NCBI GenBank assembly: GCA_018432615.1
Contig: JAHDSQ010000026.1
Span: forward strand, 1-60,243
Direction: 5' to 3'
DNA length: 60,243 bases
Source of the DNA: Clostridia bacterium
GTDB taxonomy: Bacteria; Bacillota; Peptococcia; DRI-13; SM3-B62
Positions 4,651 through 54,421 of this stretch are shown piece by piece. Numbering within the stretch: the first letter of the stretch is position 1; every line of letters begins with the position of its first letter. The notes under the pieces are model-generated. The model saw only the letters and a program-made list of their open reading frames with translations, did not search any database and was not told the DNA's origin. The translations under genes and the position numbers were made by a program.

Positions 4651-4934
4651 AAAAACTCCTCCATCCCTAAAGGGACGAAGGAGTAATCCGCGGTACCACC
4701 CTAATTAGTGCCATTCTTGGCACTCTCTTAAACAGGACAAGCATCCTGTTCCTCTGTAACGTGAGGACACGTCTTCCTCTAATGTGGAGCTGTCTGAAAG
4801 TCTCCATTTCTCAAGGTTGAAACTCAAGGGCTGCTTTCAACATGGTTTGCTGTCGGGCTTCCACCGTTTACCGACTCGCTTTGAGCTGGACATGTTTACT
4901 CTTCCCTATCATCATTTATGTTACGATATGATTT
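4651..4934 (-). ncRNA. T-box riboswitch, alanine specifier
   Basis: The minus strand contains the T-box sequence GGTGGTACCGCGG (about 4682-4694), followed by a terminator hairpin ending in TTTTT near 4651. Stem I carries an AGTA element (about 4897-4900) and an apical GGTGGAAGCCCGAC. In the specifier loop, between the CATGT helix and the CCCT closing helix, I read TGAAA-GCA-G. The specifier is thus GCA (alanine) at 4832-4834. The phenylalanine and threonine leaders in this window follow the same layout, which supports this register. It controls the Lrp-type regulator and the aminotransferase. Confidence 0.88.
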
Positions 4935-13615: not shown

Positions 13616-13702
13616 GTACTTATTTTACTTTTCTTCCTTGTGCATTTTGTCTTAGCTTTGAGTGAAGAATAGTAAGAGCGAAAAGAAGTGGTAGGTGGTC
13701 AA

Positions 13703-14185
13703 ATGCAGGAGGAAAAGGAAAAATACCGCAGGCTCGCTGCATTGCTGGAAAAGTATCACGGCAAGGCTGGGGAGCTAATAAATGTTTTACATAAAGCACA
13801 GTTAATTTTCGGGTATTTGCCTCAAAAGGTTCAAATCTGCGTAGCTGATGCGCTGGGGGTACCGATTAGCGAAGTCTATGGGGTAGTAACTTTTTACTCG
13901 CTGTTTAATACTGAGCCCAGGGGAAAATACAGAATATCGGTCTGCTTGGGGACAGCTTGTTACGTTAAAGGAGCGGGCAGTATCATGGAGGCCCTTAAGG
14001 AAAATCTCAAAGTAGATGAAGGAGGAACAACAAAGGACGGGCTTTTTACTTTGGAAAGCGCACGGTGTGTAGGGGCATGCGGCTTAGCGCCGGTTGTAAC
14101 GATAAACGGTAATGTGCATGGTCGAATGACGGCAGATGATATTCCTGAACTCCTTGAGCGGTACAGAAAGGAGGCAAAAGAGTGA
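13703..14185 (+). CDS. NADH-dehydrogenase-type 2Fe-2S subunit of hydrogenase (NuoE/HndA-like)
   Basis: A 160-residue thioredoxin-fold [2Fe-2S] protein. Four cluster cysteines are present: C81 and C86 (CLGTACY), C122 and C126 (RCVGACG). It is the small electron-transfer subunit (NuoE, HydC or HndA type) of an NAD-linked [FeFe] hydrogenase. The ATG at 13703 follows AGGTGG; an in-frame GTG at 13688 overlaps that site and is less likely. Its stop codon overlaps the GTG start of the next gene. The three-gene order matches HydC-HydB-HydA systems, several of which are electron-bifurcating with ferredoxin. Confidence 0.92.
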   Translation: MQEEKEKYRRLAALLEKYHGKAGELINVLHKAQLIFGYLPQKVQICVADALGVPISEVYGVVTFYSLFNTEPRGKYRISVCLGTACYVKGAGSIMEALKENLKVDEGGTTKDGLFTLESARCVGACGLAPVVTINGNVHGRMTADDIPELLERYRKEAKE

Positions 14186-15978
14186 AATACCAACGGGTTC
14201 ATTTGCTATTGTGCCATGGTACTGCCTGTGTGTCGGCAGGAAGTGAGAAGATAGACGAAGCTATAAAAGAGGAACTTAAAAAATATAGTTTAGAAGAAGA
14301 GGTCAGGCTTGTACCTACGGGATGCTTTGGCTTTTGCGCTATGGGGCCGGTTATGCTCGTTTATCCGGAAGGAGTTATGTACTGCAGGGTCAAGCCGGAG
14401 GATATCGAGGAGATCGTTTGCGAGCATTTGCTGAAAGGGAGAATAGTTGAGCGCCTGCTGTACAAGGAGCCGGACGGCAAGGAAAGGGTGGCGGAACTCA
14501 GTGATATTGAATTCTTTCGTCATCAGCGGCGAGAAGTACTTCATAATTGCGGGCAGATAAACCCGGAGGATATCGGGGAATACATAGCCCGTGACGGTTA
14601 TTTCGCTTTGGCGGAGGTGCTAATGAAAAGAAGCCCCCAGGAGGTCATCGACATAATTACAAAATCCGGTTTGAGAGGTCGAGGGGGAGGAGGATTTCCT
14701 ACAGGGAGAAAATGGTCTTATGCAAAGCAAGCCACAGGTGAAATCAAGTATGTTATCTGCAACGGGGACGAAGGGGACCCCGGCGCTTTTATGGACAGAA
14801 GTGTTATGGAAGGCGATCCTCATGCGATTCTTGAAGGGATGTCAATTGCCGGTTATGCTATTGGCTCATCTCAGGGCTATATTTACGTACGAGCCGAATA
14901 CCCTATAGCCGTAGAAAGACTTGAACATGCAATAGGAGAGGCGCGCAAGACGGGTTTATTGGGGAAGGACATTTTTGGCAGTGGTTTTGATTTCGATATT
15001 GAATTGCGGTTAGGAGCAGGAGCCTTTGTGTGCGGGGAAGAAACCGCATTGCTGCACTCCCTTGCGGGCCGGAGAGGTGAACCGAGACCTCGTCCTCCCT
15101 TTCCGGCTGTTGATGGTTTGTTCCATCGACCGACACTGATTAATAATGTTGAGACGCTGGCAAATGTGCCGCGGATCATCTTGAATGGTGCCGAATGGTT
15201 TGCCGGGATAGGAACAGAAAAAAGCAAAGGTACTAAGGTTTTTGCCCTGGCCGGGAAAATCAATAACACCGGCTTAATCGAGGTGCCGATGGGGACCAGT
15301 CTCAGGACAATCATTTACGATATCGGAGGCGGCATCCCTAAGGGAAGAGAATTTAAAGCGGCCCAAATCGGCGGCCCGTCGGGAGGGTGCCTGCCCAAAG
15401 AATACCTTGATACTCCTTTGGATTATGACAGTTTGATTGAGCTTGGGGCTATGATGGGGTCAGGTGGTCTGATTGTAATGGACGAAAGTGACTGTATGGT
15501 GGATATTGCTCGTTTCTTTTTGGAATTCACCCAAGATGAGTCTTGCGGGAAGTGTACTCCCTGCCGGGTGGGGACCAAGCGGATGTTGGAGATACTGGAA
15601 CGTATAACTCAGGGTGAAGGCGAAGAAGGTGATATCGATTTACTAAAGAGTCTGGCCGAAGACATCAAGGGTAGTTCATTGTGTGGCTTGGGACAGACGG
15701 CACCTAATCCCGTTCTGAGCACGCTGCGCTTTTTTGAAGACGAATACATCGCTCATATCAGGGATAAACGTTGCCCGGCGGGAGTGTGCAGCAGTTTACT
15801 TCGGTTTGAAATAATTCCTGAAAAGTGTACAGCCTGTACGGTTTGTGCACGGGTCTGCCCTGTGGATGCTATCAGCGGTACACCCCGCAAACCTCCGTTT
15901 GTTATTCACCAGGATATCTGTATAAAATGCGGAGCTTGCCAAGCCAAATGTCCCTTTGGAGCTATTGCCAAGGTTTAG
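14182..15978 (+). CDS. NADH-binding flavoprotein subunit of hydrogenase (NuoF/HydB/HndC-like)
   Basis: A 598-residue subunit carrying NAD(H) and FMN sites and several Fe-S clusters. In order: an N-terminal thioredoxin-like [2Fe-2S] domain (C11, C16, C48, C52); the NuoF core with GRGGGGFPTG near 168 and CNGDEGDPGAF near 193; a [4Fe-4S] motif SCGKCTPCRVGT near 455; and two C-terminal ferredoxin clusters (CTACTVCARVCP and CIKCGACQAKCP). The C-terminal 2x[4Fe-4S] is typical of HydB/HndC, not respiratory NuoF. The GTG start at 14182 has AAAGGAGG upstream and overlaps the previous stop. Confidence 0.94.
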   Translation: MKYQRVHLLLCHGTACVSAGSEKIDEAIKEELKKYSLEEEVRLVPTGCFGFCAMGPVMLVYPEGVMYCRVKPEDIEEIVCEHLLKGRIVERLLYKEPDGKERVAELSDIEFFRHQRREVLHNCGQINPEDIGEYIARDGYFALAEVLMKRSPQEVIDIITKSGLRGRGGGGFPTGRKWSYAKQATGEIKYVICNGDEGDPGAFMDRSVMEGDPHAILEGMSIAGYAIGSSQGYIYVRAEYPIAVERLEHAIGEARKTGLLGKDIFGSGFDFDIELRLGAGAFVCGEETALLHSLAGRRGEPRPRPPFPAVDGLFHRPTLINNVETLANVPRIILNGAEWFAGIGTEKSKGTKVFALAGKINNTGLIEVPMGTSLRTIIYDIGGGIPKGREFKAAQIGGPSGGCLPKEYLDTPLDYDSLIELGAMMGSGGLIVMDESDCMVDIARFFLEFTQDESCGKCTPCRVGTKRMLEILERITQGEGEEGDIDLLKSLAEDIKGSSLCGLGQTAPNPVLSTLRFFEDEYIAHIRDKRCPAGVCSSLLRFEIIPEKCTACTVCARVCPVDAISGTPRKPPFVIHQDICIKCGACQAKCPFGAIAKV

Positions 15979-15991
15979 GAGTGATAAAAAA

Positions 15992-17749
15992 ATGGTGACA
16001 TTAACGATAGACGAGCAAAAGGTAACTGTACCGGAAGGAACGAGTGTTCTTGAAGCTGCCTGGAAGATAGGAATAGACATTCCCTCCTTATGTTATTTGA
16101 AAGGCCTTAATGAAGTGGGGACGTGCCGGGTTTGCGTGGTGGAAATAGAAGGATCTAAAACTTTGCAAGCCTCCTGTGTATATCCGGTTACGGAAGGGCT
16201 GGTCGTGCGGACCAATACCCCCAAGGTTTTAAAGGCACGCCGTACCGCTTTGCAGCTGCTTTTATCGGAACACCCTCAGGATTGTTTAAGCTGTTACCGC
16301 AATATGAATTGTGAATTGCAAGCCTTGGCCCACCGCTTTAATATCCTGGAGATACCCTTTTGCGGGGAGAAGAAGGAACCGCCGAACGATGATAAATCTG
16401 TAGCGGTAATGCGGGAACCGGCTAAATGTATTCGCTGTCGCCGTTGTATCGCTGTATGTTCAGAGGTGCAGCAGGCCTTTGTTTATTCGGCAGTCCACAG
16501 GGGTTTTGACTCCATGGTTTCACCCGCCTTTGGTTTGAGTCTGGATGATGTTGCCTGTATCACCTGCGGGCAGTGTGCCAATGTCTGTCCGACGGCAGCG
16601 ATCCACGAACCGGACAACACAAAAGAGGTCTGGGAGGCCTTGCATGATCCTGAGAAATGGGTTGTTGTTCAGGTTGCCCCTTCGATTAGGGTAACGTTGG
16701 GCGAAGAGTTTGGTCTGCCGATAGGTTCGGTTGTCACAGGCCAGCTTGTTGCGGCTTTGCGGAGACTGGGTTTTGACAAGGTTTTCGATACGGACTTTAC
16801 CGCCGATTTGACAATAATGGAGGAAGGGCATGAATTCCTTGAGAAGCTGAAAAACGGCGGGCCTTTTCCTCATTTAAGCTCGTGCAGTCCGGGGTGGGTC
16901 AAATATTGTGAGCATTTTTATCCGGAAATGTTGTCGCATGTGTCAACAGTAAAATCGCCCCATTCCATGTTTGGGGCGTTGGCCAAAACTTATCATGCCG
17001 AGAAAATAGGCGTAGATCCTGCCAGGATGGTAGTTGTTTCCGTTATGCCCTGTACGGCTAAAAAGTATGAAATAAACCGTCCGGAGATGACAGACAGCGG
17101 TTTTAAGGACGTAGATGTAGTTATTACGACACGGGAGTTAGCAAGGATGATCAGGGAGGCGGGGCTGGATTTTATCAACCTGCCTGAAGAGGAATTCGAT
17201 GAGCCGTTAGGGATCGCCAGTGGAGCCGGACTGATTTTCGGAGCCACGGGAGGGGTTTTGGAGGCTGCCTTGCGGACGATCTATGAGCTTGAAACCGGGA
17301 AAGAATTTCCTTTGCCTCAGTATGAACAGTCCCTGCGAGGCATGGACGGTTTAAAGGAAGCAGAAGTAGAAATGCCCCAGGGTTTGATAAGGGTGGGGAT
17401 TGCCCATGGCACAGGGAATGCGAAGCAGATCCTTGAGAAAATAAAAGCGGGGGAGAAATATCATTTTGTGGAGATCATGGGGTGTCCGGGGGGATGTGTA
17501 GGCGGCGGCGGGCAGCCGATTCTTTCTTTCCGCAGGGGGTGGGAAGGCTCGATGGATTACCGAATGGACCGTGCCGATTCCCTCTACAAGGCGGAGCAGG
17601 AACTACCTTATCGAAAGTCACACGAAAACCCGGAAATCAAAAAGATTTACCGGGAGTTCTTAGGGCATCCCTTAAGTGAGATTTCGCATAAGCTTTTACA
17701 CACAAGCTATACCGCCAGGTCAAGATACCCGCAAAAAGTTGTTGATTGA
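15992..17749 (+). CDS. NADH-dependent [FeFe] hydrogenase catalytic subunit (HydA/HndD-like)
   Basis: Reversibly reduces protons to hydrogen in the cytoplasm with electrons from NADH and probably ferredoxin. The 585-residue protein has an N-terminal plant-type [2Fe-2S] domain (C near 34, 45, 48, 61), a His/Cys3 [4Fe-4S] region around HPQDCLSC, two [4Fe-4S] motifs (CIRCRRCIAVC, CITCGQCANVC), then the H-cluster domain. Motif L1 reads SSCSPGW where TSCCPxW is usual, L2 is VMPCTAKKYE and L3 is IMGCPGGCVGGGGQP. The small HydE-type C-terminal extension follows. ATG 15992 has TTAGGAG upstream. The last 21 codons are repeated 1,002 bp downstream. Maturases HydEFG are not in the window. Confidence 0.95.
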   Translation: MVTLTIDEQKVTVPEGTSVLEAAWKIGIDIPSLCYLKGLNEVGTCRVCVVEIEGSKTLQASCVYPVTEGLVVRTNTPKVLKARRTALQLLLSEHPQDCLSCYRNMNCELQALAHRFNILEIPFCGEKKEPPNDDKSVAVMREPAKCIRCRRCIAVCSEVQQAFVYSAVHRGFDSMVSPAFGLSLDDVACITCGQCANVCPTAAIHEPDNTKEVWEALHDPEKWVVVQVAPSIRVTLGEEFGLPIGSVVTGQLVAALRRLGFDKVFDTDFTADLTIMEEGHEFLEKLKNGGPFPHLSSCSPGWVKYCEHFYPEMLSHVSTVKSPHSMFGALAKTYHAEKIGVDPARMVVVSVMPCTAKKYEINRPEMTDSGFKDVDVVITTRELARMIREAGLDFINLPEEEFDEPLGIASGAGLIFGATGGVLEAALRTIYELETGKEFPLPQYEQSLRGMDGLKEAEVEMPQGLIRVGIAHGTGNAKQILEKIKAGEKYHFVEIMGCPGGCVGGGGQPILSFRRGWEGSMDYRMDRADSLYKAEQELPYRKSHENPEIKKIYREFLGHPLSEISHKLLHTSYTARSRYPQKVVD

Positions 17750-19972: not shown

Positions 19973-20022
19973 AAAAGGTGGGTAAGGAAGCAGCATTTTC
20001 GCGGCTTCCTTACCCACCTTTT
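19973..20022. terminator. Bidirectional intrinsic terminator
   Basis: A 19-bp perfect stem (19973-19991 with 20004-20022) whose arms begin and end in A and T tracts. It lies between the convergent peptidase and hydratase genes and can serve both strands. Confidence 0.9.
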
Positions 20023-20033
20023 GGTATTTCTGT

Positions 20034-20657
20034 TTAGTAGAGTTTTGTGTATTTGAAGTCAGCAGGAATATTCAGGTCTTTATAGGCCTTTTTCTTGTTT
20101 TCTTCAACGACTGTATCTATGCCTTCGAAATAATTGTTTCCTTCGCAATCGATATCTACGACGAAGGGACCGAACTTATCGAGCTGAAGGTGCCAGGCCG
20201 CTTCGATAGTGCCCAACTCATCGAACAGGTAGACATCTTCGATTTTGATGCTGTCCAACCAGAGGTTCGGGCTCACACTTTGGGGAGAGAGATGTACACA
20301 TTTATGTTCTTTCATGGCTTGTGCAGTCTCTTCGCCCATGGTTGTTTTGCCTACGATTGCTTTCAATCCCCATTCTTTTACGGATTTAGCCCCCCATTTT
20401 TCAAACCTGATACTGGAGGTAGGAGTAAAGGATACAAGCCTCCAATCATCATTTTCTCTCACAATGATCGGTCCGACATGAATTAAGAGATTTCTCTGCT
20501 CTGTGGAAAACGGTAATTTATTTTTCTCATCAAAAATATAACGCTGTAATCTGGAACGGCAAGTAAAAGCCGGTCCGGAAAGATAAACCAGGTCACCTAT
20601 TTTTAGTTGCACAACATCTTCATCAGTAAGGGGGACATTCAAATAATATGTTGCCAT
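20034..20657 (-). CDS. Class I fumarase/tartrate dehydratase-type hydratase, beta subunit
   Basis: The 207-residue C-terminal (beta) half of a two-subunit class I hydro-lyase that adds or removes water from C4-C5 dicarboxylic acids. Family features include GDLVYLSGPAFTCRSR near 20-35, PTSSIR near 78, and AAWHLQLDKFGPFVVDID near 165. It departs from the usual enzymes: the TARDxAHKR-type motif reads TCRSRLQRY, and the region normally rich in GGAAAL reads LSPQSVSPNLW. Substrate may differ from fumarate. The ATG at 20657 has GGGAGGT upstream and lies four bases after the alpha-subunit stop. It is the last gene of the operon, ahead of a strong terminator. Confidence 0.85.
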   Translation of the reverse strand: MATYYLNVPLTDEDVVQLKIGDLVYLSGPAFTCRSRLQRYIFDEKNKLPFSTEQRNLLIHVGPIIVRENDDWRLVSFTPTSSIRFEKWGAKSVKEWGLKAIVGKTTMGEETAQAMKEHKCVHLSPQSVSPNLWLDSIKIEDVYLFDELGTIEAAWHLQLDKFGPFVVDIDCEGNNYFEGIDTVVEENKKKAYKDLNIPADFKYTKLY

Positions 20658-20661
20658 TTTT

Positions 20662-21579
20662 TTACCTCCCGTCAAACCAGTTTGGATTATCTAATTCTTC
20701 TGTTCTACCGTCGGAATAGACTCTTGTTGTTGCCCGTCTGGCGATCCAGCAATTGCTGCTCAAGGCAACTGCTATTCCGGCGATGTGGGTATAAGCGTAT
20801 TCCACATTGACTGAGAAAACGGACGTGTCCCCGCCGGAACCCATTGGACCGATACCAAGGCTGTTGATTGAGTCATAGAGATCTTTTTCGATTTGCGACA
20901 TCATTTCTTCGGGGTGGTGGGAGTCAACAAGCCGCAGGCAGGCTGCTTCTTTGGCTAAGGCTGATGCAATATTGCCCGTTCCACCTATCCCGACCCCAAG
21001 TACAGCCGGTGGACAGATAGCACCTGCCCTTGCTGCTGCGGAGTAAGCATCGATGACGAATTTTTTTATACCGGCCAAACCATCGGCAAAAGCGATCATT
21101 TTGTACCTTGTTCCTCCGAAACACTCGGAGCCCCCACCCTTTGCCGCATAGCTAATCTCAATATCATTTCCCGGGACAAATTTGTAAGTGAAGTGGGGTA
21201 TATTCATCCCGACATTAGTGCCGGGATCATATCCGGTCAGAGGGTGTTTCATAGTAGCCCTTAAGTATCCTTCTTTTGTAGCCTTTGCTACCATATTTCT
21301 TGCCAGTTCTTCTAATGCCATGAAGCCACCCTCGATTTTAGCTTCATTGCCAACCTTTAAAAAGAAGAGGGGCCAACCGGTATCGGGACATGCCGGATTC
21401 ATACGTTCAATGGAAAGATCTAAGCTTTTTAATGTGTTGTTGAACCCTTCTTTGGCTTTTTGTGTTCTTTCATTAGCTATGGCTCTGTTGAATGCTTCTC
21501 TAACATCTTTTGGTATGCAGCAAGAGCCTTTTTTAATGGTATCGAAGATGACATGTTCCAATACCTCTTTTTTTATCAT
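20662..21579 (-). CDS. Class I fumarase/tartrate dehydratase-type hydratase, alpha subunit
   Basis: The 305-residue alpha half, which binds the oxygen-sensitive [4Fe-4S] cluster. The first cluster cysteine lies in NPACPDTGWPLFF near residue 71. The others are probably in GSECFGG near 155 and GAICPPAVLGVGIGG near 190, as in fumarase A and TtdA. The PPAVLGVGIGG pattern is closer to my recollection of tartrate dehydratase-type subunits. The ATG at 21579 follows AAGGAGG; an in-frame TTG three bases upstream is a weaker alternative. It is co-transcribed with the VOC epimerase, DUF4387, AtuA-like and TRAP genes, which points to a carboxylate catabolic role rather than the general TCA cycle. Confidence 0.88.
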   Translation of the reverse strand: MIKKEVLEHVIFDTIKKGSCCIPKDVREAFNRAIANERTQKAKEGFNNTLKSLDLSIERMNPACPDTGWPLFFLKVGNEAKIEGGFMALEELARNMVAKATKEGYLRATMKHPLTGYDPGTNVGMNIPHFTYKFVPGNDIEISYAAKGGGSECFGGTRYKMIAFADGLAGIKKFVIDAYSAAARAGAICPPAVLGVGIGGTGNIASALAKEAACLRLVDSHHPEEMMSQIEKDLYDSINSLGIGPMGSGGDTSVFSVNVEYAYTHIAGIAVALSSNCWIARRATTRVYSDGRTEELDNPNWFDGR

Positions 21580-21626
21580 CAATCTAATCCTCCTTTTGAC
21601 TTAGGCCGAACGATTATATTCCCAGG

Positions 21627-22016
21627 CTATTTCTGGATGAGCTGGGAGGTAAGGCCAAGGGCATATTTTGGGTCTAAATCGGCAATTTTCCAGTCTCCGA
21701 CATTGCTCGTTCTTTCTTTAGTTATAGCGTCGGGTGGAAGTGTTTTTTTTGCTTCTTCAATATCGTCGACGAGGTAGGCAATGTGATGAAATCCTTCCCC
21801 CTTCGTCTTGAGGTGTTTACATAAAGGAGACTCCTCCGAGAGAGGGGCTAAGTACTCCAAAAAAGTCTCTCCAGCCTTGAACATGACCGCATCCATTTGC
21901 CTATCGCTGATCGTGATTCTCCTATCAGGTTCAATGTTATAAGCATCCTTCATCAGTTTAATGACCTTTTCCAGATCATGAACAGCAAATCCTAAATGGT
22001 GTACTTGTTTAAACAT
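21627..22016 (-). CDS. VOC-family protein, methylmalonyl-CoA epimerase-like
   Basis: A 129-residue glyoxalase/VOC-fold protein similar over its full length to methylmalonyl-CoA epimerase (VHHLGFAVHDLE at the start, GEGFHHIAYLVDDIEEAKK near 90). The N-terminal and central histidine metal ligands are present. The terminal glutamate, metal ligand and catalytic base in the canonical GVLIELVE ending, is a glutamine here (GLTSQLIQK). No methylmalonyl-CoA mutase gene is in the window, so the protein may act on a different 2-substituted acyl-CoA or free acid in the same operon, or have lost activity. The ATG at 22016 has GGAGGTAAATAC-like spacing upstream. Confidence 0.82.
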   Translation of the reverse strand: MFKQVHHLGFAVHDLEKVIKLMKDAYNIEPDRRITISDRQMDAVMFKAGETFLEYLAPLSEESPLCKHLKTKGEGFHHIAYLVDDIEEAKKTLPPDAITKERTSNVGDWKIADLDPKYALGLTSQLIQK

Positions 22017-22033
22017 TGTATTTACCTCCGTAT

Positions 22034-22345
22034 TTATGGTATTAAAACATTTGCCAGCAGACTATGTTGTTGACATCCGTAAATATCGGTATCCTGGATA
22101 TCTCCGCTGATATACTTCCTGGGAATCGTGATCTTGATGGAATTGACGATATCGTACTCGGTTATTAAAACCTGGGAAGGGGAGACATGATATTTTTCAG
22201 CTATCAACTCTTTGTTGATCACGCCCGAATCCTTAACCCTCTCGTAGATATTCTTTTCGGTAAACATTACATCAAAAGTTATATCAAGAGGTCCGGCATT
22301 TTTACTTCTTAAAACACCGGCCAAATCAATCAGCCTATCACTCAT
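22034..22345 (-). CDS. DUF4387 protein
   Basis: A 103-residue protein with the DUF4387 signature: LAGVLRSKNAGPLDITFDVMF at the start, a YERVKDSG helix near 34 and VLITEYDIVNSIKITIPR in the second half. These small proteins are usually encoded beside, or fused to, AtuA-like DUF1446 proteins, and probably form a complex with them; the reaction is not established. The ATG at 22345 overlaps the DUF1446 stop codon by eight bases, as expected for subunits of one enzyme. Confidence 0.85.
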   Translation of the reverse strand: MSDRLIDLAGVLRSKNAGPLDITFDVMFTEKNIYERVKDSGVINKELIAEKYHVSPSQVLITEYDIVNSIKITIPRKYISGDIQDTDIYGCQQHSLLANVLIP

Positions 22346-23705
22346 TATCCACACCTACCTCAATGTATTGAATTTTTGCTGTTTCCATCAGGTCTTCGAC
22401 TTCCACCAAGTGGTAGACGCTGAAATTGTAAACGGGACCTATAGGAATATCAGAGGGAGAATAAGGAAAGGCTATATTACCTGCTGTGGTCTTCCTTCCC
22501 GGATAGTCGCAGTGCAGTGTCTTTGCTCTGGCATTAGCACATACATCATTTGCGATATCCTGAGTCTTACCGACAACATCAATAACCATTCCTACTTCGG
22601 AAGGCAAAGCTGTTCCGTCATGAGGATTGTTTTCAACAGCATTTATGCCGTAGTTTCGGAAATTTAATGTGTAATCATCGGGACTGATTCTATCTTTTAG
22701 TGATTCTTCGACCTGTCCCTTTATTTGCTCAACAACTTCATCCATTTTTTTAATCATCAATTCTTCCCTAATCCCGCCGATGCTGATGGTACGATAACCA
22801 GCCAACTTGACGCCTTCGATTTTAATCGTTGGTTTTTCGGTTGGAACAAATTTGCTGCCTGATACCTTTACCGTACGGGCATTAAACTGCTCAAACTCAG
22901 AATTTCTCAGATCAATCATACCGTCCGGTTCATAAATGTAATACGGGTTAGCTTGTTCATAGAGGGTATGAGCCGCTACACCTTCTACCAGGCATTTTCG
23001 CAGCGGATTGGGAGGTTGGATGGTAAAGTGGTCTTTTTGGATTTCGCCGAGAATTACGTCAGAGGCACTCATCGGCTTGGCACACATTGCACCGCATTCC
23101 ATGATTTTTGCCAGATGAAAAGCCAGCCCCGGGTCGAAACCGGCACGAATAGCCGGAGCAGCAAAAATCGCCGTATCACATGCCCTTCCCGCTAGGATTA
23201 CATCTGCTCCTTCGTCAAGAGCTTTGATAAACGGGGCTATACCGATCTGACCGACAAGTCTGATGCTTTCGTCGATTGCTTCTTCGGTCAAAGGGAAGTC
23301 TTTGCTGCCCAATGTTTTTACTTTTCCTTCTCTTAATTTTTCCTTCAGATATTCTTTGCTTACCTCGGAATGGATTACGGCCATTTTGAAGTTTAGGTTA
23401 TTTTCCTTTGCTACTTCCTCAATGATGTCTTTAGCCCAATGCAAATGTGGTTCTCCGCCGCTTCCTCCGGCTGTCCCGACGATAAAGGGGATGTTTCTTT
23501 CAATTGCTGCAGGCAGGACCAATTCTGTATCTCTTTTAGTTGCCGTCCTGTTTGTAAATGATTCTCCAGACCCGAGAAAATAGGGTCCGGGGTCGGTAGA
23601 ACCACCATCGACGCCAATGATATCTAATTCATTTTCAAGGGCCTTTTCAAGCCCTTCAATCGAGTAGCCGTATCCTAAAATACCGCTTAACGATAATATT
23701 TTCAC
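22338..23705 (-). CDS. AtuA-like DUF1446 protein
   Basis: A 455-residue cytoplasmic protein of the acyclic terpene utilisation AtuA family (DUF1446), partner of the DUF4387 product. Typical segments are the N-terminal GILGYGYS and DIIGVDGGSTDPGP (residues about 8-43), a glycine-rich IPFIVGTAGGSGGEPH near 77, and VILAGRACDTAIFAAPAIR near 170. The family is seen in isoprenoid, branched-acid and organic-acid catabolic clusters, but its chemistry is not settled. The start is GTG at 23705 with CGAGGTG upstream. It sits between TRAP transporter and hydratase genes, suggesting action on the imported acid or its CoA ester. It differs clearly from the second AtuA protein at 54.4 kb. Confidence 0.88.
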   Translation of the reverse strand: MKILSLSGILGYGYSIEGLEKALENELDIIGVDGGSTDPGPYFLGSGESFTNRTATKRDTELVLPAAIERNIPFIVGTAGGSGGEPHLHWAKDIIEEVAKENNLNFKMAVIHSEVSKEYLKEKLREGKVKTLGSKDFPLTEEAIDESIRLVGQIGIAPFIKALDEGADVILAGRACDTAIFAAPAIRAGFDPGLAFHLAKIMECGAMCAKPMSASDVILGEIQKDHFTIQPPNPLRKCLVEGVAAHTLYEQANPYYIYEPDGMIDLRNSEFEQFNARTVKVSGSKFVPTEKPTIKIEGVKLAGYRTISIGGIREELMIKKMDEVVEQIKGQVEESLKDRISPDDYTLNFRNYGINAVENNPHDGTALPSEVGMVIDVVGKTQDIANDVCANARAKTLHCDYPGRKTTAGNIAFPYSPSDIPIGPVYNFSVYHLVEVEDLMETAKIQYIEVGVDNE

Positions 23706-23753
23706 TTAAAGACACCTCGTTTACGTTTTTCTTTTTCTAAGCAACAAATACTT

Positions 23754-25013
23754 TTACATTAAATTAGGGAGAAACATTATTATACCGGGAACATAGGTGA
23801 TGACAATGAGATCTATTAAGAGCATTATCAAATAAGGCATTACCCTCGATATAACTTTTTCAATGGGCAATCTGGCAATCGTCCCGGCAACATACAAGTC
23901 AACACCTACCGGCGGCGTTATATAGCCAATAGCTAGGTTGACAACCATCAAAACACCCAAAAAGACAGGATCGATCCCGTATTGCAACGCAACAGGCAGG
24001 AAAATAGGAGCGAGTATGGCAACAATGGCCGAGCCGGTAACTAATGTTCCGGCAACCAAGAACACCACATTCAGCAGCATCAAAAATACTATTTTGCTTT
24101 GGCTGATGGAGGCACAGAGTGCGCCAATTGTATGCGGAACCCTCTCATTTGTTAAAAGCCAACTAAAGACTGATGCGTTTTGAATAATAACCAGCACCAC
24201 GGCAGCGTTAATGATCGATTTGATAATAATGCTGCTAAGATCCTTTAATTCTAGACTGCGTTCCACAAAGAGGCTTATTACCAAGGCATAAACTACGGAT
24301 ACGACAGCCGCTTCGGTAGGCGTGAACACCCCTCCATATATTCCTCCCAAGATGATGACGGGCATCATCAATACAAAAATACTCTCTTTGATTTTGCTCC
24401 AAAACTCTTTTAGACTGAATTCCCGTACTTCACCGTAATCATATTTGTACGAAAAGAAGATACTTAGGGCTGCCAGCGACAAGCCCATAATCATTCCCGG
24501 GATCAAACCGCCCATGAACAACTTTCCTACCGACGTTCCTGTTACCACGCCGTACACAACCAAGGTTATGCTTGGCGGGATAACGATCCCGGTAATCCCT
24601 GATGCAGCAATGACAGCTGCGGCGAAGTCTTTAGGATAGCCTTTTTTCTCCATTTCATCGATCATAATCGTTCCGATGGAAGCACAGGTGGCCGCCGAAG
24701 AACCGGAAATCGCCGAAAAGAAAAGGGAAGCCAAACTGGCTGTTATGGCTAAACCGCCCTTGACAAAACCAACACATGACTCAGCAACGCTGATTAGCTT
24801 TTTTGTCATATTTCCTTTGGACATGATCTCGCCGGAGAGCATAAAAAAGAGGATGGCCATGATAGGAAAAGAATTTGTGCTGGCCAACATTCTTTGTATG
24901 GCCATGGAGATAGGAATTCCATCAAAATACAAGGTGATTATTGAAGCCAAGCCCAGGCATACCGCGATAGGCATGGAGGTGGCTAACAAAGCCACAAAAA
25001 TAACTAAGGCCAT
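23754..25013 (-). CDS. TRAP transporter large permease (DctM)
   Basis: The 419-residue membrane subunit with about twelve helices that couples carboxylate uptake to the sodium gradient. Family motifs: PIAVCLGLASIITLY near the N-terminus, GSSAATCASIGTI near 95, GITGIVIPPSITLVVYGV near 145, FTPTEAAVVSVVYAL near 230 and GYITPPVGVDLYVA near 370. The ATG at 25013 has GAGAGGAT upstream. With DctQ and DctP upstream it forms a complete tripartite transporter. Confidence 0.95.
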   Translation of the reverse strand: MALVIFVALLATSMPIAVCLGLASIITLYFDGIPISMAIQRMLASTNSFPIMAILFFMLSGEIMSKGNMTKKLISVAESCVGFVKGGLAITASLASLFFSAISGSSAATCASIGTIMIDEMEKKGYPKDFAAAVIAASGITGIVIPPSITLVVYGVVTGTSVGKLFMGGLIPGMIMGLSLAALSIFFSYKYDYGEVREFSLKEFWSKIKESIFVLMMPVIILGGIYGGVFTPTEAAVVSVVYALVISLFVERSLELKDLSSIIIKSIINAAVVLVIIQNASVFSWLLTNERVPHTIGALCASISQSKIVFLMLLNVVFLVAGTLVTGSAIVAILAPIFLPVALQYGIDPVFLGVLMVVNLAIGYITPPVGVDLYVAGTIARLPIEKVISRVMPYLIMLLIDLIVITYVPGIIMFLPNLM

Positions 25014-25056
25014 TTATTTTTACATCCTCTCTACATTTAAATGTAAGAAGATATTT

Positions 25057-25527
25057 TTATTGTTGTGAGCTGGCACTCAATTTTAAACGTTCCAGCATGG
25101 CTAATATGCAAAAGATTGCTCCTGCCGGAATTGCTAAATAAACATATCCCATAGGTATAAGCAGGGTCGCGGATTTTTGCGCCATGGTAAACAGTACCAT
25201 CTTATAGCCTGTAACAACTACGACCGCAAAAAAGATCGTTACCAGCAGTTCAATACCTATTAAGAAGGCTTTTTTGATTTTTGGCGGTAATAGTTCAACA
25301 AAGAAAACTACTCCCAAGTGGGCTTTTTCTCTGAAACCGTAACTGATACCGAGGAAAATCACCCAGACGAAAAGATAACGGCTCAATTCATCGATTTCAG
25401 CTATGGAAAAATTAAACACGAAACGCAAGACCACTTGCAAAAAGATTATTCCCACCAGGAAGGATGTTATAAGTATCAGAAACATACCCAACCATTTGAA
25501 TACCGTGTTGTTGATTCGTTCGATCAT
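25057..25527 (-). CDS. TRAP transporter small permease (DctQ)
   Basis: A 156-residue protein with four membrane helices. It contains the DctQ pattern FLQVVLRFVFN near residue 28, ELSRYLFVWVIFLG near 43 and GYVYLAIPAGAIFCI near 127. It bridges DctP delivery to the DctM channel. The first codons (MIERINNTVFKW) are typical of DctQ. Located between the binding-protein and large-permease genes. Confidence 0.93.
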   Translation of the reverse strand: MIERINNTVFKWLGMFLILITSFLVGIIFLQVVLRFVFNFSIAEIDELSRYLFVWVIFLGISYGFREKAHLGVVFFVELLPPKIKKAFLIGIELLVTIFFAVVVVTGYKMVLFTMAQKSATLLIPMGYVYLAIPAGAIFCILAMLERLKLSASSQQ

Positions 25528-25645
25528 AGCCAGTCGTTCCTTTCTGAAATTAAGCTTTTGATTAAGCTTATTGTTTTTTACTATTCCAGGAGGAGGAGTA
25601 AGAGGAGACCGGTCAGGAAACCTCTTACTCTCAAGAAAAGTGTAT

Positions 25646-26665
25646 CTATTTGGCTAATTCCATGATCCTTGCCAATAGTTCCTCATCGGCATATTCGGCT
25701 CGAACAGAGTTGGTCATTTCCATTAATTCGCTGATGACTTCTTCCGGAACATCATAAACCTCTACTCCGGCGTCAATCATAGTTTGCAGTTCCCTTTTAT
25801 CGTCTTCTTGACATATCTCTCTTTGGTAATCGCGGGCTTCTATAGCTGCATCCTGAACAATTTGCTGGAACTCAGGCGATAGTTTTTCCCACGTCTTTAA
25901 ACTTATAACAACAGGCTCAGCTCCATACTGTATATTTAAGTTGTCTGCATAATACTTTTGCACTTCATGAATCTTGTTTTCAACCATTGTTGAAGGAGGA
26001 TTGAACTGTCCGTCTGCTGTTCCTTGTTGTAAGGCTATATAACACTCATTCCAGGCAACGGAAATCGGGTTACCCCCGATGGCTTTAATTGTCGCCGTCA
26101 GGACAGGACTGCCGGGAACCCTGATTTTCAAACCCTTAAGGTCCTCCAAGGTCTCGATTTTTCTTGTGTTGCCGCTAAGACGTTTGAAGCCGGTCTCCCA
26201 ATTGGCCAAAAGTTTCATTCCCACAGCCTGTAGAGCTTCATCGCTTTCCATGCCGATGGTATCTAAAGTTTTATAGGCATGGTCATAATCTTTAAAAACA
26301 AAAGGTAAATCGTAAACGCCCATTTCAGGCACGAAATTTGCCAGTATTGCCGGTGAATTTAAAACGATGTCAACTACGCCCATTTGGCAAGCTTCGGTCA
26401 TATCTTTCTGGTTGCCTAACTGAGAGTTGGGATAAATTTCAACTTTGACTTTGTTATCGGTCTTTTCTTCAACTATTTCTTTGAACAACAGGCAACCCTT
26501 ATGCCAAGAGTGGGACTCTGAGGATTTATGCCCCATTTTCATTACGATAGGTTCTTCACTCTGCTCCGGCTGTTCTGCTTCCGCTTGTTCGCTTGCCCCG
26601 CAACCTACCGTGAGTAAAGTAATAGACAGAAACAAGATAAAACAAAGCAATGTATATTTTTTCAT
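25646..26665 (-). CDS. TRAP transporter substrate-binding lipoprotein (DctP)
   Basis: An extracytoplasmic binding protein of 339 residues. The signal peptide ends in a lipobox (TVGC, cysteine at residue 22), so it is anchored in the membrane. DctP features are clear: KMGHKSSESHSWHKG at the mature start, YPNSQLGNQKDM near 82, and GLKIRVPGSPV near 175, whose arginine normally clamps a substrate carboxylate. N-P-P-S-T near 217 belongs to the usual dimer/ligand region. The ligand is thus probably a carboxylic acid, but the subfamily cannot be read by eye. It is the first structural gene after gntR. Confidence 0.93.
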   Translation of the reverse strand: MKKYTLLCFILFLSITLLTVGCGASEQAEAEQPEQSEEPIVMKMGHKSSESHSWHKGCLLFKEIVEEKTDNKVKVEIYPNSQLGNQKDMTEACQMGVVDIVLNSPAILANFVPEMGVYDLPFVFKDYDHAYKTLDTIGMESDEALQAVGMKLLANWETGFKRLSGNTRKIETLEDLKGLKIRVPGSPVLTATIKAIGGNPISVAWNECYIALQQGTADGQFNPPSTMVENKIHEVQKYYADNLNIQYGAEPVVISLKTWEKLSPEFQQIVQDAAIEARDYQREICQEDDKRELQTMIDAGVEVYDVPEEVISELMEMTNSVRAEYADEELLARIMELAK

Positions 26666-26756
26666 GACAGATACTTAACCTCCAATTCAATATATAAGTA
26701 TTTCTGGAAATTTTCTTAATCATTCCAGCGAGCTGAAAATGTGCTAGAATAGAACA

Positions 26757-26848
26757 AGAGAGTCATCCTTGTTAGTTGCGTTCCCCGATGCACTAACCGT
26801 TAAAAGGGTGGCTTTCGCAATTTCTCCATACGAAAGCGTAGTTTTTTT
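26757..26848 (+). ncRNA. Candidate structured small RNA antisense to the gntR-dctP spacer
   Basis: On the plus strand an extended -10 (TGCTAGAAT, 26742-26750) is followed by two hairpins: GTTAG-TGC paired with GCA-CTAAC (26771-26797), and GCTTTCG paired with CGAAAGC (26811-26837). A run of seven T follows at 26842-26848, as in an intrinsic terminator. The -35 is poor. I recognise no Rfam family. The structure could also act on the minus strand as a leader of dctP. Confidence 0.35.
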
Positions 26849-26911
26849 CCATAAAAGATATCTTTACATCACCTCCGTTTGTGATTAAGGTATTAAGTTT
26901 CCTACCACCTC

Positions 26912-27619
26912 CTATTTTTTAAGCTGCATCCCAAGGATCAAGTTCTCTTTGCCTTTGGCAAGGTGTTCTTTCATGCATTTTTTTACCAGTTTCTTGTCCT
27001 TGCTTTCGAAAGCCTCAAGGATTTTTTTGTGTTCAATGCATGATGTATGCAAACGTCCTTCCTTAAACAAAGATATGGACTGTATTACGCTTATTTGTAC
27101 CCAGATTTCCCTGATTATCTTTTCCAACTTATCGTTATCGGCGATTCTCATAATATTCATATGAAAGTCGGCATTAGTCTTCATGATGTTTTTCTTATCA
27201 TTGGATTGAAGTGATTCTAAACGGGTTTCGATGGCCTGAAGTTTTTGCAAATCTTCATCGGTCATTCTTTCAATGGCCATTTCGGCTCCCATTACTTCCA
27301 ACGAATACCTGACCTCCCAAATGTTTTCGATGTCCTTTAGCGTGACAGGAGTGACAATGACACCTTGGTGGGAATTGTAGCTCAATAAACCTTCGGACTG
27401 CAGAATTCTAAAGGCCTCACGCAGAGGTGTTCTACTTACACCTAATTCGTCACATATCTCTTTTTCTTTCAATTTGTCTCCCGGTTTGAAATGTCCATTA
27501 ATCATAGCAGTGCGTAGATAATTTGCTATCGAAACGGCAATCGATTCCTTTTTGGGTTTTTGTTTCTTGTCAAATTTTCTTCTGAGTAGGTATATTTTCC
27601 CTTGCTTTGCGATAAACAT
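26912..27619 (-). CDS. GntR-family regulator, FadR/FCD subfamily
   Basis: A 235-residue repressor-type regulator. After a basic N-terminal extension, a winged helix-turn-helix covers about residues 25-95, with KEKEICDELGVSRTPLREAFRILQSEGLL as the DNA-reading part (about 51-79). An all-helical FCD ligand domain follows, with NADFHMNIMRIADN near 148 containing the expected metal-binding Asp/His residues. Ligands of this subfamily are commonly carboxylic acids. The ATG has AAAGGAG upstream. ATTGTATACAAT-type palindromes lie in front of the gene. It heads the TRAP-DUF1446-hydratase operon, which it presumably controls together with itself. Confidence 0.92.
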   Translation of the reverse strand: MFIAKQGKIYLLRRKFDKKQKPKKESIAVSIANYLRTAMINGHFKPGDKLKEKEICDELGVSRTPLREAFRILQSEGLLSYNSHQGVIVTPVTLKDIENIWEVRYSLEVMGAEMAIERMTDEDLQKLQAIETRLESLQSNDKKNIMKTNADFHMNIMRIADNDKLEKIIREIWVQISVIQSISLFKEGRLHTSCIEHKKILEAFESKDKKLVKKCMKEHLAKGKENLILGMQLKK

Positions 27620-27653: not shown

Positions 27654-27665
27654 TTTGTATACAAT
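27654..27665. promoter_or_regulatory. GntR-type operator 1
   Basis: TTTGTATACAAT, 11 of 12 positions palindromic, 35 bases upstream of the gntR ATG. Likely an autoregulatory site. An imperfect TGCATACAAAA follows at 27673-27683. Confidence 0.6.
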
Positions 27666-27687: not shown

Positions 27688-27699
27688 ATTGTATACAAT
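27688..27699. promoter_or_regulatory. GntR-type operator 2
   Basis: ATTGTATACAAT, a perfect 12-bp palindrome upstream of gntR, identical to the one covering the aconitase -10 box. FCD-type GntR regulators commonly bind short palindromes of this kind. Confidence 0.65.
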
Positions 27700-27813: not shown

Positions 27814-27825
27814 ATTGTATACAAA
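27814..27825. promoter_or_regulatory. GntR-type operator 3
   Basis: ATTGTATACAAA, 11 of 12 positions palindromic, 36 bases upstream of the -35 box of the thiamine operon. An imperfect ATTGCATACAT follows at 27831. It may serve gntR from a distance or touch the divergent promoter. Confidence 0.45.
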
Positions 27826-27889: not shown

Positions 27890-27904
27890 TAAGTTAATCG
27901 AATA

Positions 27905-28020
27905 TTCGGGGAGCTGGGACAGTCCGGCTGAGAGGGCATTTGCGAGAGGCTCAATAAGAAATTTATTGCTCGGGAAATGCCGACCCTTAAACCTGATCTG
28001 GATAATACCAGCGGAGGAAA
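27905..28020 (+). ncRNA. TPP (thiamine pyrophosphate) riboswitch
   Basis: The conserved THI-box elements are all visible: TCGGGGAGC, CGGCTGAGAGGG, GACCCTT and ACCTGATCTGGATAATACCAGCGGAGG. When TPP binds, the downstream hairpin terminator (28041-28077) should form and stop transcription of the thiamine-precursor transport genes. Confidence 0.97.
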
Positions 28021-28040
28021 TAGCCTAGGAATTAAATCGC

Positions 28041-36059: not shown

Positions 36060-36084
36060 TTTTTTAAATCAGTATATATATCGG

Positions 36085-36346
36085 CTATGAACGGGACAAT
36101 TCACCGCACTGATAAGGTTTTCTCACAGAGAGGCGTACCTTTGGCTGAGAGTACGACTGGGAAAGAATGCGGTAAAACCACCCGGGAGCTTCTTTTTTGA
36201 AAGGAAACATATTGTTTGCAAACGAGTAAAAAAAGGCGTAGACCGGCGTTAACGGGTTTGAGAAGGAAAGAAATTGGTTTGAATATTTCTTTCAAGAAGG
36301 GTGGAACCGCGGGTTATTAGCCTCGTCCCTCAAGGGACGGGGTTTT
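36085..36346 (+). ncRNA. T-box riboswitch, threonine specifier
   Basis: T-box sequence GGTGGAACCGCGG at about 36300-36312 and terminator hairpin CCTCGTCCCT/GGGACGGGG with T-rich tail at 36321-36346. The specifier loop between the CCGCA/TGCGG helix and the CGGG/CCCG closing helix reads TAAA-ACC-A, giving ACC (threonine) at 36177-36179. It controls thrS. Confidence 0.93.
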
Positions 36347-40621: not shown

Positions 40622-40878
40622 AAAAGAGAAGCAATAGTGTGGGTAATGACGATGAACGGAAGTCCTTTAGCCGTCTTAAACAGGGAATGAGGTCGGGACT
40701 GAAAGCCTCATTAAGATGACGAAAAGATATTTCATCCGGGAGTTGCAAGACTGAAATTCAAGAGTAGGACTTGCCGGTTGGCCTTCGTTACGGGCTGTGA
40801 GAGAATCCAGAATGTGGATTAATTAGGGTGGTACCGCGGAATATGCTTTCGTCCCTGTGGGGTGACGAAGGTTTTTTT
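40622..40878 (+). ncRNA. T-box riboswitch, phenylalanine specifier
   Basis: GGTGGTACCGCGG at about 40828-40840 and a terminator hairpin ending in seven T at about 40871-40878. In stem I the specifier loop reads ATAT-TTC-A before the CGGA/TCCG closing helix, placing TTC (phenylalanine) at 40731-40733. The apical segment CAGGGAATGAGG closely resembles that of the aroF leader, so the two phenylalanine T-boxes may be related by descent. Controls pheS-pheT. Confidence 0.92.
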
Positions 40879-51507: not shown

Positions 51508-52896
51508 GTGTCAAAGGGAACGCTGTTAGATCCTCATTCGCTCAAAAAATGGTCAATAAATGTCTTTGATGCTCTGGGGGATGGGTTACTAATTGCAGAC
51601 CAGGATGCAATTATTCAGTATGTTAATAAAGAGTATTTAAGGATAATTGGGATGGAGAAGGAGGAGGTATTAGGAAAACCTCTTCATATAGCTCGTCCCG
51701 GAGCTATGCTTCCCAGTGTTATTAAATCGGGCAAACCTTTGTCGGGGGTATATCGTAGAGTCGGTACAGTTGAATATGTTGTTGACATGGCACCTATACA
51801 TGTGAATGAAAAGATTATAGGTGGGGTTTCAATTGTCAAAGATATAACAGAGGTTAAAAAACTTTCCAAAGAGTTAAAAAAGGCCCAAAACAGGTTGGAA
51901 TACTTACAGGGAACAGTCGGGCAAATCTTTAAGGCAAGATATACTTTGGACATGTTAAAAGGCTATTCCCCAGCTTTTAGAAAGGCAATATCTCTGGCGG
52001 AAAGAGCCTCGTTGAATAATTCAAATATTTTAATAAGTGGTGAGAGCGGTACCGGTAAAGAACTTCTGGCACAGGGCATTCATAATCTGAGTCCCAGAAA
52101 GCATAATGCTTTTGTTGCCGTAAATTGTGCGGCAATTCCCGCTAATTTATTGGAAAGCGAATTATTTGGTTATGCTGAGGGAGCTTTTACCGGATCCAAG
52201 AAAGGGGGCAAGGCAGGTCTATTTCAGCTAGCAGATGGCGGAACACTGTTCCTTGATGAGATTGGTGATATGGGTTTTGAGTTACAGGCCAAATTGCTGA
52301 GGGTACTACAGGAGCAAAAAGTAAGGCGGATAGGGGGAATTAGTGAGGATATTGTTGATGTCCGGATTATTTCTGCAACAAATCAAGACATTGAAAAGAT
52401 GGTTGAAAAAGAACGTTTTAGACAGGATTTATTCTATCGTCTAAATGTTTTTCAGATAACCTTGCCCCCCCTGCGGGAAAGAAACATGGATATATTGACG
52501 CTGGCAAGCTATTTTGCTGAACAATATTTGGACCATAAGATTCCAGAGGGTTTTTTTTCTCAAGAAGTTAAAGAAATATTTTTAAATTATGATTGGCCGG
52601 GAAACATTAGACAATTGAAAAATGCTATAGAATTTGCCTGCAACATGCTGGATAACGGAGAAAGAATCCTTCCCAATCATTTGCCTGAAAGGATCAGAGA
52701 AAAGATGAGTATTTGGGAGGCTTCATACGGGCAAATAGACAACCTTGGGGTAATGGTGAACAAATTTGAAAAGGAAATAATAGAAAATGCGCTCAAGGTG
52801 TATGGAAATGACCTAGAAGGTAAGAGGAGGATATGCAAAGAATTAGGAATATCTTTAGCCAGTTTATATCGTAAAATGAAAGATGTTTCTCAATAA
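51508..52896 (+). CDS. Sigma-54-dependent transcriptional activator with PAS domain
   Basis: A 462-residue bacterial enhancer-binding protein. An N-terminal PAS domain (about residues 12-115; [21 protein letters not shown]) should bind a small ligand. A short coiled-coil linker leads to the AAA+ domain (about 150-380): Walker [15 protein letters not shown] (variant of GAFTGA) contacting sigma-54, and Walker [12 protein letters not shown] Fis-type helix-turn-helix ([18 protein letters not shown]) ends the protein. GTG start with AAGGTGGTG upstream. It lies directly before a consensus sigma-54 promoter and the transporter/AtuA genes that it most likely activates. Confidence 0.95.
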
Positions 52897-52914
52897 TAAT
52901 ATAATCCGACATTA

Positions 52915-52924
52915 TTTTGCAAAA
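52915..52924. promoter_or_regulatory. Possible upstream activator site
   Basis: TTTTGCAAAA palindrome about 125 bases upstream of the sigma-54 promoter, a usual distance for an enhancer-binding protein. Only one copy was noticed, so this is tentative. Confidence 0.3.
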
Positions 52925-53036
52925 ATGAGAATTCGCTAAGGACTACTGTAACAATAAAATCATACTAGCACGCTTTTTCATTTATCAATTTTGAGAAGTC
53001 CGGATATTAAAAGTGGGTATCTACTACCTAATAAAG

Positions 53037-53053
53037 TTGGCACGAGACTTGCT
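53037..53053 (+). promoter_or_regulatory. Sigma-54 (-24/-12) promoter
   Basis: TTGGCACGAGACTTGCT matches the TGGCAC-N5-TTGCW consensus perfectly, with the invariant GG and GC correctly spaced. It lies 48 bases upstream of the transporter ATG and downstream of a gene for a sigma-54 activator. Confidence 0.93.
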
Positions 53054-53100
53054 TATATTTATAGTAACCGCGCGGAAAAACTTTTTAAGGAGGGATACAG

Positions 53101-54393
53101 ATGCTTGCTTTATTGGGTTTACTCACAATTCTGATATTGCTGATTTTAGTGATAACAAAAAAAGCCACGGTTCATTTTTGTTTAGTAGTTGTTCCTTTTG
53201 TCATTGCTTTGTTAGCAGGATTCAGTATTAGTGAAGTCTCCGAGTTCATGACCAAAGGTATTAGCAGTATTGCCAGTACCGGTATTATGTTGACTTTTGC
53301 AATACTATTCTTCGGAGTGATGTACGAAGCAGGGATGTTTGACCCGGTGATCAAGGGAGTTATTAAGGTTTCTGGCGGAGATCCGTTAAAACTGGCCGTA
53401 GGTACTGCCATTGTTGCAATATGTTCTCACATGGATGGTTCAGGAGCCACTACATTTCTGATTACCGTATCGGCGTTGCTTCCGATATATAACGCTTTGG
53501 GTATGAAACGGGTATACCTTGCAGCTATAGCAGGGCTTGGAGCCGGGGTTATGAACTTGATGCCTTGGGGCGGTCCTACCATAAGAGCGGCTACGGCGCT
53601 TAGCGTTGATGTTACAAGCCTCTATAACCCTATAATACCGGTGCAAGTTATCGGGATTATTTGGGTTTTGCTTGCTGCTGCTTATCTTGGGAACAAGGAA
53701 AGAAAAAGGCTCGGTATTATCATAGAGCCTAACTCCGGTCAGCAGGAAAGCGAGGAAGCAGGCGCAGAGGAAAACAGAGCTAAAAAGATGTTGCCGGTAA
53801 ATATTCTTTTAACTGTAGTAATTCTGTTTCTTATGATTAAAAAGGTTATTCCCCTTTCGGCAGCATTTATTCTCGGGCTTCCGATTGCTTTGTGGATAAA
53901 CTATCCTGATATCAAAACACATCAGTCCAAACTGGAAGCGCACGCTAAAGGAGCGGTATATACAGCTTCAGTTATTTTTGCAGCGGGTATATTTACCGGA
54001 ATATTGAAAAATTCAGGAATGATTGAGGCCATGACACAGGTTATGGTGGGGTTCCTGCCGCAAAGTATGGCAGCGTATTATGCTCCGATTATTGGCTTTT
54101 TCAGTATGCCTTTAAGCCTATTCTTCGATCCGGATTCTTTCTACTTTGGTGTTCTTCCTGTGCTTGGTGGTGCTGCCCAAGCCTTAGGTATTGAACAAAT
54201 AGAAATAGGCAGGGCTGCTATTTTGGGACAAATGACGACCGGTTTCCCGGCCAGCCCGTTAACCGGATCAACATGGCTTCTTTTGGGTTTAGCCGGGGTT
54301 GAATTAGGTGACTTGCAGAAGGTATTAATTCCGCTGGCGTGGGGAACAACCATAGTAATGGTCATTGCAGCGATGATTATCGGCGTAATATGA
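53101..54393 (+). CDS. CitMHS-type citrate/carboxylate transporter
   Basis: A 430-residue membrane protein with about twelve helices, related to CitMHS metal-citrate symporters of the ion transporter superfamily. Features are ILFFGVMYEAGMFDPVIKGVIK near residue 70, CSHMDGSGATTFLITVSALLPIY near 108, LMPWGGPTIRAATAL near 157 and FDPDSFYFGVLPVL near 342. The substrate is likely a tri- or dicarboxylate. AAGGAGG precedes the ATG. First gene after the sigma-54 promoter, followed after 28 bases by atuA-like genes, which suggests that the imported acid is processed by the AtuA module. Confidence 0.88.
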   Translation: MLALLGLLTILILLILVITKKATVHFCLVVVPFVIALLAGFSISEVSEFMTKGISSIASTGIMLTFAILFFGVMYEAGMFDPVIKGVIKVSGGDPLKLAVGTAIVAICSHMDGSGATTFLITVSALLPIYNALGMKRVYLAAIAGLGAGVMNLMPWGGPTIRAATALSVDVTSLYNPIIPVQVIGIIWVLLAAAYLGNKERKRLGIIIEPNSGQQESEEAGAEENRAKKMLPVNILLTVVILFLMIKKVIPLSAAFILGLPIALWINYPDIKTHQSKLEAHAKGAVYTASVIFAAGIFTGILKNSGMIEAMTQVMVGFLPQSMAAYYAPIIGFFSMPLSLFFDPDSFYFGVLPVLGGAAQALGIEQIEIGRAAILGQMTTGFPASPLTGSTWLLLGLAGVELGDLQKVLIPLAWGTTIVMVIAAMIIGVI

Positions 54394-54421
54394 ATTGATT
54401 TAACAACTGGGGGATTGTACT

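Follow-up and report, generated by a model that had tools for sequence, protein, structure and literature searches.

A TRAP transporter-linked operon encoding a class I hydro-lyase and a homologue of citramalate lyase CmlAB in a Clostridia bacterium

DUF1446/DUF4387 protein pairs are common in bacteria, yet they are annotated as acyclic terpene utilization proteins or only by their DUF numbers. The structures in PDB entries 9erq and 9evf are titled citramalate lyase CmlA/CmlB, with 9evf being the ADP and pyruvate complex. A literature search did not find a paper describing CmlAB, so it is the PDB titles that give the activity of the solved enzyme. In E. coli the homologue shares 91% identity with 9erq_A, and the CmlAB genes have methylaspartate ammonia-lyase on one side and, on the other, a symporter and then a class I fumarase. 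The E. coli O157-type methylaspartate cluster has the order glmS-glmL-glmE-mal-DUF1446-DUF4387-symporter-fumD. A 2015 paper reported that DUF1446 adjoins the methylaspartate genes in E. coli O157 and did not settle what becomes of citramalate (PMC4682846); class I fumarases are known to act as mesaconases (PMC4682846; PMC12290011). The classical CitDEF-type citramalate lyase of Clostridium glutamate fermentation is expected to carry out the same net reaction with protein families (HpcH/HpaI and CitF) that are unrelated to the DUF1446/DUF4387 pair. AtuA, from the same Pfam family as the large subunit, is assigned as an acetate lyase whose substrate, in the breakdown of acyclic terpenes, is a CoA ester, and the accessible text of that source mentions no DUF4387 partner (PMC4847356).

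The window is the whole stretch of DNA analyzed here, 60,243 nucleotides of contig JAHDSQ010000026.1 from a Clostridia bacterium. ORF calls and Pfam place nine genes on its minus strand, from 27619 down to 20034, in the order gntR, dctP, dctQ, dctM, DUF1446 (AtuA), DUF4387, VOC, Fumerase, and Fumerase_C, and the Pfam matches of all nine exceed the curated cut-offs. This is the co-directional arrangement given in a preliminary description of the DNA. The tight spacing reported there holds for most of the gaps (17–48 nt) but not for gntR-dctP (246 nt) or dctP-dctQ (118 nt), and we infer that the nine genes form a single transcript. A strong intrinsic terminator consisting of a hairpin and U tract (19974–20021, minus strand; −36.9 kcal/mol, z −7.9) lies 3′ of the last gene, and a hairpin with a fold z of −2.9 (25560–25645, minus strand) lies within the dctP-dctQ gap. 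The conserved-neighborhood search that had been proposed recovered the full nine-gene order in the sister genome Clostridia bacterium SM3-B6.2 (97% lyase identity) and in HGW-Firmicutes-12, which belongs to a different family of the same order (80% lyase identity). The dN/dS between the window and the sister genome is 0.02–0.11 for each of the nine genes, showing purifying selection. The recurrence of the order in these two genomes together with the low dN/dS shows that the arrangement is not due to chance. No further lyase homologue of at least 60% identity was found among 60 relatives and 398 phylum-sampled genomes, and the nine-gene order was absent from all other homologue neighborhoods examined.

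The large subunit of the DUF1446/DUF4387 pair (22338–23705, minus strand) is a CmlA-like protein that matches 9erq_A with E = 1.5e-121 over residues 2–440, its full length, with 201/433 positions identical (46%). The small, CmlB-like subunit (22034–22354, minus strand) carries the DUF4387 Pfam domain and matches 9erq_B with E = 1.5e-21 and 42/97 identical positions (43%). The two genes overlap, as originally described, by 17 nt in the ORF call or by 8 nt (ATGAGTGA) from the likely DUF4387 start, an ATG at 22345. The AlphaFold model of the DUF1446 protein (pLDDT 86.6) superimposes on 9evf with a TM score of 0.92, and the structure search with this model gave no match besides 9evf at E 0.001. 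The window pair is thus a homologue of citramalate lyase CmlAB with the same fold, and 9erq/9evf are the sole solved relatives of both subunits. The CmlA/CmlB matches agree with the suggestion that the pair is a two-subunit enzyme. The accompanying label of uncharacterized has to be given up, because relatives are solved as citramalate lyase and AtuA has been assigned as an acetate lyase (PMC4847356). Homology to a C-C lyase predicts that the window pair cleaves a hydroxy acid in a citramalate-type reaction. Because its solved relatives are named citramalate lyase, the pair most likely acts after the hydratase and not between uptake and hydration as first proposed.

Gene neighborhoods bear on the substrate of the pair. 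The E. coli and many Bacillota homologues adjoin glutamate mutase and methylaspartate ammonia-lyase, in many cases with a class I hydratase as well; this is a citramalate-making context and supports a citramalate reading. More distant DUF1446/DUF4387 pairs have flavin monooxygenases, citrate synthases, tripartite tricarboxylate transporters, and aldehyde dehydrogenases as neighbors, which makes a single substrate for the whole family improbable. Relatives on plasmids of Klebsiella and soil bacteria likewise point to several hydroxy acids as substrates across the family. A conjugative Klebsiella pneumoniae plasmid (L019, NZ_CP138692.1) carries a CmlAB pair together with several aldehyde dehydrogenases and a fumarate hydratase, and lyase matches of equal identity occur on other Klebsiella plasmids. 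A second AtuA protein (504 bits) is encoded without DUF4387 in the window region 51508–55765 (plus strand), directly 3′ of a CitMHS-type transporter and a PAS/sigma-54 activator, and is possibly part of another small acid-use cluster.

In a maximum-likelihood tree, the window lyase groups with its two orthologues and with a member from another context (L060), to which the window clade is sister (100/92). This group lies outside the methylaspartate-linked clade, whose own support is only 90/83 in the same tree. The neighbors of the L060 lyase are a diol-dehydratase-like glycyl radical enzyme, an aldehyde:ferredoxin oxidoreductase, and DctM, and this neighborhood named no substrate. The three window-type proteins all depart from the methylaspartate-linked lyases at 39 positions that are fixed in the latter; one such change is P178T, next to the conserved Arg174 and Asp177. 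The family-wide residues Asp33, Asp38, Arg174, Asp177, Lys200, Glu203, Glu250, Lys295, Glu297, and Glu370 are retained. Lyase chemistry is probably kept, and the lyase substrate may have shifted. The window lyase and the methylaspartate-linked citramalate lyases therefore offer a defined comparison that should show the residues governing substrate choice.

The two hydro-lyase subunits are encoded separately as Fumerase (alpha; 20662–21582, minus strand; 236 bits) and Fumerase_C (beta; 20034–20675, minus strand; 85 bits), both above cut-off, which identifies a class I enzyme. The genes overlap only in the longest-ORF call and are separated by 4 nt when beta starts at its likely ATG at 20657. 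The CQDTG motif of the fumarases and methylaspartate-linked mesaconases in the set is replaced by CPDTGW in the window alpha subunit, its two orthologues, and the hydratase of genome G303, and the window hydro-lyase falls apart from the methylaspartate-linked mesaconases in the tree. The G303 hydratase is 61% identical to that of the window and adjoins a lyase inside the methylaspartate-linked clade. This pairing favors citramalate as the hydratase product despite the unusual motif. The G303 cluster also encodes two amidohydrolases and a DcuC/YfcC-type carrier, and extending the hydratase search to the whole order to which G303 belongs revealed no additional clusters. From its family and context, the hydro-lyase is predicted to hydrate mesaconate or a close analogue to (S)-citramalate or the corresponding analogue.

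The hydro-lyase could alternatively be a tartrate dehydratase or fumarase, with tartrate, aconitate, or tricarballylate as the substrate and the DUF pair as an unrelated accessory enzyme. The best NCBIfam match of the beta subunit is indeed L-tartrate dehydratase beta, but the scores are far below the cut-offs for both beta (139.8 versus 264 bits) and alpha (163.7 versus 365 bits). The DUF pair has the citramalate-lyase fold and family match, and a citramalate-type lyase is not needed in, and has no evident role in, the pathways for these acids. We consider this assignment improbable. These three acids stood beside mesaconate/citramalate in the original list of candidates; they now appear less likely, and mesaconate/citramalate is the entry that the data favor.

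DctP (solute-binding protein; 25646–26665; 283 bits), DctQ (small permease; 25057–25527; 115 bits), and DctM (large permease; 23754–25013; 390 bits, with TIGR00786 over its cut-off) are encoded together on the minus strand and make up a complete TRAP transporter. The LTVGC sequence in the DctP translation resembles a lipobox. TRAP systems transport many dicarboxylates, a breadth that would also accommodate tartrate, aconitate, or tricarballylate. In the PDB, the window DctP has an isethionate-binding DctP as its second-best match, which raises the idea of a degradation pathway for an organosulfonate analogue of a C4/C5 dicarboxylate. Plasmids of Pseudomonas and Methylobacterium point the same way, since distant relatives of the hydratase are encoded there in operons that also hold a succinate-dehydrogenase-like complex and exporters for sulfite or sulfate. 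In three plasmid operons (L134, L135, and L136) a class I hydratase is paired with a second complex of this kind, and exporter genes for sulfite or sulfate near two of them (L134 and L136) suggest organosulfonate use there, perhaps of sulfosuccinate. However, no sulfonate ligand is stated for 4p47, the best DctP match; the plasmid hydratases share only 35–39% identity and have a different motif (CADTG/CGDTG), and the operon lacks a sulfite-handling gene. An organosulfonate substrate is very improbable.

The VOC-superfamily protein (21627–22016, minus strand) resembles methylmalonyl-CoA epimerases in alignments and scores 71.7 bits against TIGR03081, below the 114.95-bit cut-off for methylmalonyl-CoA epimerase. 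Its probable metal ligands by alignment are His7, Glu54, His78, and Gln126; the last replaces the final metal-ligand Glu of methylmalonyl-CoA epimerases in all three orthologues. It is plausibly a metal-dependent proton shuttle acting on a free or activated acid.

As the preliminary description held, the operon is a complete cassette for import and degradation, and its substrate is very probably a single carboxylic acid. On balance, the cluster probably takes up and cleaves a branched C5 dicarboxylate of the mesaconate/citramalate type. The acid itself is named as a candidate only and is very probably mesaconate or a similar small branched acid. In the proposed sequence, a GntR/FCD repressor would leave its operators when the acid is present, and the acid would enter through the TRAP transporter. 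The class I hydro-lyase would then add water to the double bond of mesaconate, or a close analogue, to form (S)-citramalate or its analogue. The DUF1446/DUF4387 heterodimer would cleave this hydroxy acid to acetate and pyruvate or another 2-oxo acid without the need for a CoA-transferase gene in the operon. The VOC protein would probably set stereochemistry by proton transfer next to a carboxylate; speculatively, it might epimerize 3-methylmalate, letting the hydro-lyase enter through mesaconate. What is new is a TRAP-linked variant of the hydration and citramalate-type cleavage pathway, plus an unexplained leader. The cassette is a self-contained unit for uptake, hydration, and cleavage without CoA-activation genes, which makes its substrate directly testable with the binding protein and three enzymes. 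The E. coli O157-type cluster (PMC4682846) likewise joins a DUF1446/DUF4387 pair to transporter and class I hydratase genes; unlike the window operon, that cluster makes mesaconate internally from glutamate, uses a single-chain FumD, and has neither TRAP nor VOC genes.

The mesaconate/citramalate reading draws on the sole solved relatives, the methylaspartate contexts of homologues, the known mesaconases, the G303 pairing, the retained lyase core, and the conserved gene order. It is weakened by the position of the lyase outside the methylaspartate-linked clade with its 39 fixed differences, and by the CPDTGW motif of a hydratase that does not group with mesaconases. Nor would a simple mesaconate pathway give the VOC protein an obvious task. 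These same differences in both enzymes, and the many unrelated contexts of DUF1446/DUF4387 pairs, could mean that hydratase and lyase are re-specified for a substituted fumarate/malate with another alkyl or a polar group at C2, from which acetate and a different 2-oxo acid would form, with the VOC protein handling a second stereocenter. The presence of a dedicated mesaconase and CitEF lyase elsewhere in the genome fits this alternative. The G303 pairing of the same hydratase type with a methylaspartate-clade lyase argues against it, and nothing positive points to one particular alternative acid; we regard such a re-specified pathway as possible but tentative.

The mesaconate/citramalate reading also has to accommodate the rest of the genome. 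One cluster on contig 15 (L141, G000:C15:66000–85900) contains glmS-glmL-glmE-mal-citE-citF and a mesaconase-like class I hydratase; it is the classical methylaspartate/glutamate pathway with a different lyase, CitEF. A second citramalate route would be needless beside it unless the acid is external. DUF4387 is encoded in this genome only in the window. With a mesaconase and CitEF lyase elsewhere and DUF4387 confined to the window, the window cluster is a separate route, which fits an externally acquired acid. A second methylaspartate ammonia-lyase gene of this genome (L142:7899–12186) lies beside ETF and acyl-CoA dehydrogenase genes.

The FCD-type GntR regulator (26912–27619, minus strand) has GntR (62 bits) and FCD (95 bits) domains. 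Three TTGTATACAA palindromes upstream of gntR (27655–27664, 27689–27698, and 27815–27824) are probable operators at which the regulator would act; three copies occur at the same place in the sister genome and two in HGW-Firmicutes-12. Genome-wide, 12 TTGTATACAA sites compare with 7 for the reversed pattern, which makes single sites elsewhere uninformative and the trio at gntR informative. A conserved structured leader with two hairpins lies between gntR and dctP (26747–26839, minus strand), identified by conservation and folding. Its core is 85% identical to that of HGW-Firmicutes-12, compared with 64% for the whole gap and 68–77% for the genes. The two hairpins fold in each of the three genomes, and one substitution is compensatory, although three sequences give weak statistical support. 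The leader has no match in Rfam, a covariance model built from the three sequences found only the window's own copy in 398 phylum-sampled genomes, and across all searches the leader was seen only in the three orthologous operons. A fuller alternative joins the leader to the enzymes: it would be an undescribed cis-regulatory RNA for a pathway in which both enzymes are re-specified for a branched hydroxy- or unsaturated dicarboxylate other than mesaconate/citramalate and the VOC protein fixes stereochemistry. We judge this combination rather unlikely.

Other elements of the window surround the operon. A TPP riboswitch candidate just below the Rfam gathering score (27897–28035, plus strand; 52.8 versus 54.3 bits) precedes an operon for a Thiamine_BP/NMT1/ABC transporter that is divergent from gntR; because the ORF called at 27977 overlaps this candidate, the true start of that ORF is probably later. 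NuoE/NuoF-like and [FeFe]-hydrogenase genes forming a HydABC-like cluster (13688–17749, plus strand) lie upstream of a peptidase gene and face the operon. Three T-box leaders score over the gathering threshold (4668–4921, minus strand; 36078–36333, plus strand; 40643–40859, plus strand), and the last of these precedes phenylalanyl-tRNA synthetase genes.
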